Source: Gluconacetobacter liquefaciens (GTDB lineage Bacteria; Pseudomonadota; Alphaproteobacteria; Acetobacterales; Acetobacteraceae). Taken from it: a stretch of 64,000 nucleotides of DNA. Position 1 is the first letter of the stretch; each line of letters starts with the position of its first letter. Where the stretch lies: assembly GCF_003350405.1 (NCBI RefSeq), contig NZ_QQAW01000005.1, positions 62,001 to 126,000 of the forward strand. Direction: 5' to 3'. The translations under genes were made by a program, and so were the position numbers. This document shows, in pieces, positions 5,940 through 24,015 of the stretch. The notes under the pieces were generated by a model that saw only the letters and a list, made by a program, of their open reading frames with translations, was not told the origin of the DNA and made no database searches.

Positions 5940-6169
5940 GTCATTGTCTTAAGGTGTGCCGCAAGAAAAACCATGTGTCGGGAAACGGACAGCGACTGTT
6001 CGCACAGTGCGGGTGGCTGGCATGCCCACGGTGGGGGCTCGCGATTCATGCCGAATAGGTGATGGGGATTCGGTGGACGGTAGGCTGCCGGGGGTGGCAC
6101 CGTGCCGCGGGCGGCTGGCCGGATCTGCCGGTCGCGGCGACGTAATCTGACGTGACGGAGGATGACGAC

Positions 6170-7618
<1,449 letters not shown>

Positions 7619-7780
7619 GAGCCTTCGTGGAAATGCGCGCTGGTGGCGATCCGACGTGCGTCCGCTGTGCTCCGGTGCTCACGGCCAGTAAGGCCGCTCC
7701 GCTCCGGTGCTCGCGAACACACGCCGGCCATGCCGCTGCGCGGCACTCTCGCTCACCAGCCCACATTTCCACGAAGGCTC
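7619..7780. repeat. Long-armed intergenic inverted-repeat element, copy 1
   Basis: The element begins on the base after the fumC stop. Its ends are perfect 17-base inverted repeats, GAGCCTTCGTGGAAATG (7619-7635) and its complement (7764-7780); after a 3-base mismatch, pairing resumes as GCTGGTG / CACCAGC. Inside are smaller hairpins, CGGCC-AGTAA-GGCCG and TGCCGC-TGC-GCGGCA, and a direct repeat TCCGGTGCTC. The interior matches a second copy at 23850-24015 at roughly nine of ten positions over its first 95 bases, but the outer arms differ completely between copies. About 130 bases with no visible feature follow before pyrD. Confidence 0.85.
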
Positions 7781-20704: not shown

Positions 20705-20804
20705 GTGGGAGACCGGCAACGGACGGGCGCCTTGCCAACCCGGTCAGGTCCGGAAGGAAGCAGCCGCAGTGAGTTTTGTCCGGGTCGTCTGTTCGGTCTC
20801 CCAC
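20705..20804 (+). ncRNA. ffs: Signal recognition particle RNA (small bacterial type, 4.5S)
   Basis: The SRP helix-8 signature GGTCAGGTCCGGAAGGAAGC is at 20742-20761, with the asymmetric and GGAA tetraloop regions intact. The ends pair as a long rod: GTGGGAGACC at the 5' end with GGTCTCCCAC at the 3' end. About 100 nt, without an Alu domain, is the common Gram-negative form. It joins Ffh to target inner membrane proteins. Its position directly before dnaX is common in bacteria. Confidence 0.95.
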
Positions 20805-23265: not shown

Positions 23266-23865
23266 ATGGGTGGAGCGGACATCGAACGGCTGATCGCGCT
23301 GCTGGCGCGTCTTCCGGGACTGGGGCCGCGTTCGGCCCGGCGCGCGGCGCTGGCGCTGCTGCGCCAGCCGCAGACGCGCATGCTCCCGCTGGCCCAGGCG
23401 ATGGAACAGGCGGCACGCACCGTGCGCACCTGTTCCACCTGCGGCAATCTGGATACGCACGATCCCTGCGGCATCTGCACCGATTCGGCGCGCGACCGGG
23501 GGCTGGTCTGCGTAGTCGAGACAGTGGGCGACCTCTGGGCATTGGAGCGCGCCGGTGTCCATCGGGGCGTCTATCAGGTGCTGGGCGGCACGCTGTCGGC
23601 GCTGTCGGGCACCGGCCCCGACGATCTGAACCTCGCCCCCTTGCTGGCGCGGCTGGAAGAAGGCGGGGTGCGCGAGGTGATCCTGGCGCTGGGGGCCACC
23701 GTCGAGGGAGCCGCGACCGCGCATTGGTTGCAGGATCGCCTGGCGGGCTTTGATGTCCCGGTCAGCCGCGTCGGGCAGGGCGTGCCGATGGGGGGGGGGG
23801 CGCTGGACGTGCTGGATGATGGCACGCTCGCCGCCGCCCTCACCGCCCGAAAAATCTATTCGTAA
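23266..23865 (+). CDS. recR: Recombination mediator protein RecR
   Basis: Helps RecF/RecO load RecA at gaps. The 199-residue protein has the helix-hairpin-helix LPGLGPRSARRAAL near the N-terminus, the C4 zinc finger (Cys56, 59, 68, 71; CSTCGNLDTHDPCGIC), then the Toprim domain with VVETVGDLWALE. Near the C-terminus, most RecR proteins read VPxGGELDYLD; here the stretch is VPMGGGALDVLD, one residue longer, and is encoded by a run of 11 G (23790-23800). The final codons of the gene overlap the left arm of the second inverted-repeat element. Confidence 0.95.
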   Translation: MGGADIERLIALLARLPGLGPRSARRAALALLRQPQTRMLPLAQAMEQAARTVRTCSTCGNLDTHDPCGICTDSARDRGLVCVVETVGDLWALERAGVHRGVYQVLGGTLSALSGTGPDDLNLAPLLARLEEGGVREVILALGATVEGAATAHWLQDRLAGFDVPVSRVGQGVPMGGGALDVLDDGTLAAALTARKIYS

Positions 23866-24015
23866 ACGCGCGCTGGTGGCGATCCGACGCGCGTCCGCTC
23901 TGCTTCGGTGCTCACGGTCCATAAGGTCGTTCCGCTCCGGTGCTCGCGGACACACGACGGGCGCGGCCCTATGGGCCGCTCTCGCTCACCAGCCCCTGTT
24001 TCCGAACAGATTTTT
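23850..24015. repeat. Long-armed intergenic inverted-repeat element, copy 2
   Basis: The left arm AAAAATCTATTCGTAAAC (23850-23867) contains the recR stop codon. The right arm at 23998-24015 is its complement with two mismatches. Next inside come GCTGGTG / CACCAGC, identical to copy 1. The inner hairpin GCGGCCC-TAT-GGGCCGC occupies the place of the TGCCGC-TGC-GCGGCA hairpin of copy 1, and CGGTC...GGTCG (with G-T pairs) replaces CGGCC...GGCCG. Pairing is thus kept while sequence changes. The element ends 21 bases before the next start codon. Confidence 0.85.

Follow-up and report, generated by a model that had tools for sequence, protein, structure and literature searches.

A folded repeat found at two gene ends of the window, by which we mean the whole 64,000-nucleotide stretch of Gluconacetobacter liquefaciens DNA analysed here, is very probably a MITE of the IS5-family, IS1031-group type. 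Its copies are dispersed, its arms of 17–20 bases resemble insertion sequence (IS) ends, a TNA trinucleotide that is single at clean empty sites is double at filled ones, its 162 bp are too short for a transposase gene, and it has a conserved folded core. Mobilisation in trans by an autonomous relative is suggested by the similarity of the ends. In most copies the element abuts the stop of a gene pointing the same way, and target choice explains part, not most, of this bias.

Results

Two copies in the window

A sequence-only reading of this DNA had described a structured element directly following plus-strand genes at two places. We found both copies at those places, with the following parts and host genes.

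6152–7618, + strand: class II fumarase/aspartase-family lyase gene (PF00206, PF10415), upstream of copy 1
7616–7618, + strand: TGA stop of this gene (ORF 6152–7618), left flank (target) of copy 1
7619–7780, + strand: copy 1, whole element, 162 bp (122-nt core between two arms of 20 nt each)
7619–7638, + strand: copy 1 left arm, terminal inverted repeat GAGCCTTCGTGGAAATGCGC
7639–7760, + strand: copy 1 core, folded, 122 nt, with a small palindrome flanked by two direct copies of CCGGTGCTCRCG
7761–7780, + strand: copy 1 right arm, complement of the left arm
23266–23865, + strand: recR (PF13662, PF21176, PF02132), upstream of copy 2
about 23850–24015, + strand: copy 2, whole element, same plan as copy 1
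23852–23871, + strand: copy 2 left arm, encoding with the bases just before it the final RecR codons and the TAA (23863–23865)
23872–23993, + strand: copy 2 core
23994–24013, + strand: copy 2 right arm, with pairing extending two more bases and ending TTTTT before G

As had been claimed, both copies directly follow their genes: copy 1 begins with the first base after the TGA, and the left arm of copy 2 contains the recR TAA. The stop codon of the lyase-family gene is kept at the same position at element-free orthologous sites, while the last codons and stop of recR are now supplied by the element's arm and element-free relatives have a different protein end. The two cores differ at about 10 of their first ~89 columns (by eye), in line with the estimate that nine in ten positions are shared. 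The outer arms differ and yet pair in both copies, and in the inner hairpin GCGGCCC/GGGCCGC is swapped for TGCCGC/GCGGCA with pairing retained, again as described. The GCTGGTG/CACCAGC pair is indeed unchanged between the two window copies, but the claim that it is fixed did not extend to 41 copies: at the position of its U-A pair, 24 of them have U-A, 10 have C-G and 7 are unpaired. Computed RNA folding energies lie 6.8 sd (copy 1) and 4.7 sd (copy 2) below those of dinucleotide shuffles.

Two side observations concern the same DNA. An 11-G run in recR (23790–23800), where relatives read ATGGGCGGCGCG, keeps the frame and is prone to slippage or sequencing error. The window's only match at the Rfam gathering threshold is the bacterial small SRP RNA (RF00169) at 20708–20804 on the + strand.

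Copy number and spread

Counting two copies was an understatement. A BLAST search of the window genome (4.17 Mb) with copy 1 produced 58 rows; 50 of these were taken as copies, and the other eight were six short fragments and two cross-matches between the arms of copy 1 itself. With a covariance model built on the core, the same genome gave 66 matches, and there were 5 to 134 matches per genome in 14 of 14 Gluconacetobacter genomes (up to 150 candidates scored in each). Under stricter filters, the family Acetobacteraceae gave matches in 47 of 249 genomes and 27 of 102 sampled genera. Scanning titled genomes for the core pattern yielded 86 stretches, which carried the labels Gluconacetobacter, Rhodospirillales, Acetobacteraceae, Alphaproteobacteria, Asaia, Lichenicoccus and Rhodovastum, with two contigs labelled Acidobacteria. 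Plasmid and phage collections held no match (blastn, E 1e-5). No Rfam family matched the element above its curated threshold, the sole weak match (6.7 bits against a threshold of 55) being noise, and a known RNA family was rejected on this ground. We found no description of the element in the literature searched.

Presence varies among relatives. At the eight sites studied, the element is absent throughout from G. diazotrophicus; G. sacchari lacks it at seven, one of which retains a remnant. Many of the sites compared in relatives hold decayed and internally deleted copies. Predicted 'miRNAs' of Thalassospira given in PMC6413936 (TTCGGTGCTCACGTACTTTTAG, TGCGCTCCGATGCGCGTGAACC) contain the core motif CGGTGCTCACG / CTCCGATGC; judging from this likeness, the core's apical half may be part of a wider family of repeats.

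Insertion, target duplication and IS partners

Comparison of filled and empty sites revealed how the element sits in its host DNA. Site L152 is filled in G. asukensis, with the insertion directly 3' of the TGA of the same gene, and empty in G. tumulicola, G. dulcium, G. aggeris and G. takamatsuzukensis. Among copies of the window genome, the host TTA at C4_275773 is single in the empty relative and double after insertion, and so is the stop TGA at C1_289081; at C10_18229, TTA stands at both sides and the empty relative has one TTC. The apparently empty site of C3_346475 in G. dulcium carries a left-end remnant. None of the clean empty sites (L152, L150, L155, C4_275773 and C1_289081) has an earlier palindrome. 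A mobile structured repeat, one of the options listed in the sequence-only reading, is supported, and the clean empty sites speak against insertion at pre-existing palindromes, which that reading had named as a possible explanation of the pairing.

Matching arms with identical 3-bp flanks were found in 24 distinct copies of 115 examined, 21 of them with TNA (TGA 15, TAA 3, TTA 2, TCA 1), in a search that allowed shifts and rewarded identity and so included a few chance matches (such as CCC, CTG and AGC). C preceded the flank in 16 of the 24 and G followed it in 15. Identical flanks occurred in 12 of 31 near-consensus copies vs 4 of 49 others; that most older copies no longer have them counts against the MITE reading. 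So does the divergence of the arms: ends that depend on recognition by a single transposase usually vary far less from copy to copy.

IS5-family transposases (PF13340) were present in four of four genomes tried. Two IS5-type elements with resolved ends, both from G. takamatsuzukensis, share the terminal pattern GAG(T/A/C)C(C/T)GTTTG... and have TAA and TTA duplications: L234 ends in GAGTCCGTTTGAGAATG / CATTCTCAAACAGGCTC with TAA at both sides, and L229 starts with GAGACTGTTTGGAAAATCAC with TTA at both sides. The end GAGCCTGTTTGGAAATG of the copy L163 matches the right end of L234 at 15 of 17 positions, and the end GAGACTGTTTGCAAAGTCAC of L176 matches L229 at 18 of 20, a likeness judged by eye against these two elements of the same genus. 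In other genera, most arms have a comparable GAGCCTG-nYYGA pattern. The three IS5-type loci looked at in the window genome (of six matches) had no resolved ends and showed no autonomous partner, a further point against the MITE reading.

Members of the IS1031 group prefer TNA and make 3-bp repeats, with TGA given as an example, according to PMC12016507. The element resembles this group in its ends, which begin GAG/GAACCTG... there, and in its TNA target and 3-bp direct repeats (PMC12016507), and the same genus has DUF4096 transposase loci, two of them with such resolved ends. It differs in lacking a transposase, in having a conserved folded core of 122 nt, and in its stop-codon and orientation bias, which is not seen for L234 and L229; as no called gene adjoins either of these, they neither show nor exclude a stop-codon habit.

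Among bacterial MITEs, Correia/NEMIS, ERIC, RUP and BOX are likewise about 100–160 bp long, folded, dispersed and mostly intergenic. Correia, ERIC and RUP duplicate TA. The present element differs from all of these in having no Rfam match, in its TNA duplication and in its flush, one-way placement in most copies. BOX repeats are described as supplying the stop codon at 36 gene ends of one pneumococcal genome (PMC3049150). REP/BIME sequences with their RAYT transposase are also extragenic palindromes, with roles proposed in termination and mRNA stability; REPs are characterised as 20–40 bp long and GTAG- or CGTC-tagged (PMC3733652), whereas our element has 162 bp, IS5-type ends and a target duplication, and is not a REP by sequence or size.

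Three further observations were made on interrupted or related repeats. Four copies in G. tumulicola (L353–L356, on contigs C15, C21, C27 and C28) are broken at one core position, between GATGCTCA and TGTGTGGACGGCCCTGGG..., each near a contig end, and a mobile element seems to recognise this one site of the core. Searching the assembly with PF02371 (IS110-type) for the interrupting IS found nothing. A short hairpin, CCTGTTTGAATGCG/TGCATTCAAACAGG, lies 3' of a TAG in the window genome (L214, contig C8) and in G. dulcium (L215, contig C13) where relatives have the element, and probably represents either what is left of the arms alone or a smaller related element. A recurrent short palindrome, TTCTTTTTTGAAAAAAAGAACC, downstream of stop codons (L157, L158, L224 and L225) is perhaps another dispersed terminator-like repeat.

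Pairing and compensatory change

Strong compensatory change in a structured element, as inferred earlier from two copies, was borne out by many. In 42 cores, 96.4% of 1,679 pair cells were standard and double changes occurred at 20 of 40 pairs, giving 115 double-change cells vs 28.5 in shuffles. When the arms were included (41 copies), 93.9% of 2,377 pair cells were standard, double changes occurred at 38 of 58 pairs, and 255 double-change cells compared with 68.9 in shuffles and 36–58 when partners were slid. Nor have most arms ceased to pair, an outcome that the sequence-only reading had named as fatal to its RNA idea: in 60 of 71 copies the arms, terminal inverted repeats at both ends, still form a gap-free stem of at least 19 positions (inner mismatches allowed), and some of the 11 copies below that length pair after a one-base shift.

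Changes at fixed loci bear on the strand at which pairing matters. Nearest-neighbour comparison at 14 orthologous loci found 45 double changes between Watson-Crick pairs in the arms vs 36 single changes at Watson-Crick pairs, the latter comprising 11 to or from G.U, 8 A.C and 17 other mismatches; core cells gave 31 G.U vs 39 A.C. These counts exclude site L004 and one orthologous row (L127, an 11-bp duplication), both of which the orthologue alignment contains. G.U was thus not favoured over A.C on the transcribed strand, the arm numbers being small. G.U is what an RNA on the gene-sense strand would be expected to favour, and since the two intermediates are about equally frequent, the sense strand is not favoured. 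To judge from these alignments, the pairing is apparently preserved in DNA or for both strands. The earlier argument that compensatory change signals RNA-level selection therefore fails as proof, because the arms are transposon inverted repeats with a 3-bp duplication and G.U is no commoner than A.C. The covariation is genuine, yet by itself it is no evidence of an RNA.

A reading to which we give somewhat less than an even chance is that the covariation arose from DNA mechanics without selection, by template switching within the hairpin or by recombination exchanging whole arms between copies. It would fit the lack of strand preference among intermediates, the transversion type of 16 of 26 double changes in arms differing at no more than 5 pairs (classed by eye), internal hairpin deletions that spare the lower stem, as in G. 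aggeris, and the wholly different arm pairs seen in near species at sites 1, 5 and 7. It is hard to reconcile with a T.C mismatch (GTAAA opposite TTTCC) that is fixed in position across many copies and species while adjacent pairs co-change, and that frequent template switching should erase.

Role at mRNA 3' ends

Close to the 3' foot, a T run of at least 4 occurs in only 11 of 71 copies, window copy 2 (TTTTT) among them, and 60 of 71 have no U tract. Most copies are thus not canonical intrinsic terminators, and a U-tract terminator was rejected as the general role. Of the 3'-end role raised by the sequence-only reading, the location at gene 3' ends stands, while U-tract termination is unlikely for most copies. 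SPRITE, a terminator-like pneumococcal repeat, is similarly small and concentrated at gene 3' ends (PMC3049150), and differs in the U-rich tract that follows its stem, which our element mostly lacks. An RNase III target role has been proposed for NEMIS in PMC2229807; a 3' exonuclease barrier or a NEMIS-like RNase III target is a possible, putative role of the element.

We consider it unlikely that the element is, whatever its origin, a cis-acting RNA, that is, a hairpin at the mRNA 3' end that serves as terminator, exonuclease barrier or RNase III site and is under selection in the transcript. The co-oriented, stop-flush placement described below, repeated in other genera, would agree with this, as would a strongly conserved structure with compensated changes also at fixed loci between species. 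The near equality of G.U and A.C in arms and core argues against it, together with the rarity of T runs, the decayed or internally deleted copies at many sites in relatives, and the absence of the element from the compared sites in G. diazotrophicus and, but for a remnant, from most of those in G. sacchari.

Placement at stop codons

Fifty-six of 71 non-tandem copies were flush with the stop of a co-oriented gene (−15 to +4 nt): 30 of 41 in the window genome, after exclusion of tandem copies (9 of 50; 10 of 50 in one count), and 26 of 30 in G. asukensis, these 30 being the best-scoring of 134. A reverse gene's stop was flush at the right end in two of the 71, in one of them in addition to a forward stop. 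In seven other genera (eight genomes), 25 of 29 usable loci, from 30 of the better matches, were flush with a co-oriented stop (−12 to +6 nt). Titled records agreed, with 32 of 42 copies outside and 32 of 37 inside Gluconacetobacter flush with a co-oriented stop (−15 to +8 nt) and 64 forward against 5 reverse, one copy being counted in both. This set started from 84 of 101 matches, those omitted being partial ones at the ends of contigs and additional or tandem ones within loci that had already been counted; five more lay too close to a contig end and were dropped, so that 42 and 37 were kept. The copy sets overlap (G. asukensis, other Gluconacetobacter, and some loci in both other-genera sets), orthologous copies are not independent, so that p-values serve as guides, and genes were called by a home-made codon-usage scorer trained on the window and applied unchanged to other genera.

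TGA, TAA and TAG all occur as flush stops. Several are TAG, which is not TNA; some of these resemble a one-base loss from TGAG, and at L158 the TAG is already present in the empty relative. Background frequencies were taken from 336 kb (34 element-bearing loci and the window, elements masked). There, stop codons make up 14% of non-coding TNA sites (212/1,507), 32% of [CG]TNAG sites (48/152) and 40% of CTNAG sites (23/57), and 41% of TNA sites within 100 nt past a stop (212/514) are the stop itself. The expected share flush in the right direction is 7.0% for TNA, 15.8% for [CG]TNAG, 20.2% for CTNAG and 20.6% for TNA within 100 nt past a stop. With 7% to 21% expected against 56 of 71 observed, most of the stop bias is left over after target choice, and no part of the one-way orientation is explained by target preference.

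Six of the 15 copies that are not flush forward are near-consensus copies of the window genome, three of them between divergent genes. The proposal that young copies lie anywhere and only old ones survive at stops had no significant support overall: 14 of 20 near-consensus copies were flush vs 42 of 51 others (Fisher p 0.33). Taken alone, the window genome had 2 of the 8 copies nearest the consensus (0.88 or more) flush forward vs 28 of 33 others, and in G. asukensis all 7 of 7 such copies were flush (both recounted by eye). Among copies with clean empty sites in near relatives, C1_289081 and C9_75406 are flush forward, C10_18229 is flush reverse, and C4_275773 and C1_187500 lie off stops, too few to decide between insertion and survival. 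The arm as a source of in-frame backup stops was dropped, its TGA and TAA being in another frame.

It is rather doubtful that a transposon homes family-wide to stop codons as such, in gene direction, guided by gene-end biology (for example the state of translation or transcription) and not by the trinucleotide alone, and then stays in place as a standard module of gene 3' ends, its hairpin being preserved on both strands. Very improbable is the insertion of a conserved core into the loops of pre-existing terminator palindromes, with arms belonging to the host: arms do vary by locus, some with A/T-rich feet, but the clean empty sites hold no palindrome and the arms recur as subfamilies and resemble IS ends. 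A left arm copied from host DNA, with the right arm made by fold-back, was rejected because the arms are IS-like and recur as subfamilies.

Discussion

On the MITE reading, an IS1031-type transposase encoded elsewhere in the genome would move the element through its arms. The targets would be C/G-TNA-G sites, about one third of which, where non-coding, are stop codons in these GC-rich genomes; landing on a stop would duplicate it and spare the protein. A further bias, in insertion or in survival, would then account for the roughly four in five copies that abut a stop and share the direction of the gene. The compensated arm changes at fixed loci could reflect a hairpin maintained as DNA or on both strands, whether by selection on both strands, by hairpin-templated repair or by exchange with other copies. 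A 3'-end hairpin on the mRNA may be a side role.

The element shows that covariation across the copies of a repeat does not on its own prove an RNA, and that counting G.U against A.C separates the readings. With 5 to 134 copies per genome within one genus, and empty and filled states of sites open to direct comparison, it offers a good natural system for setting insertion preference against survival. MITEs near gene ends are already known; stop-exact, one-way placement, shown by most of the copies examined in several genera, is unexplained by the trinucleotide and is directly testable.
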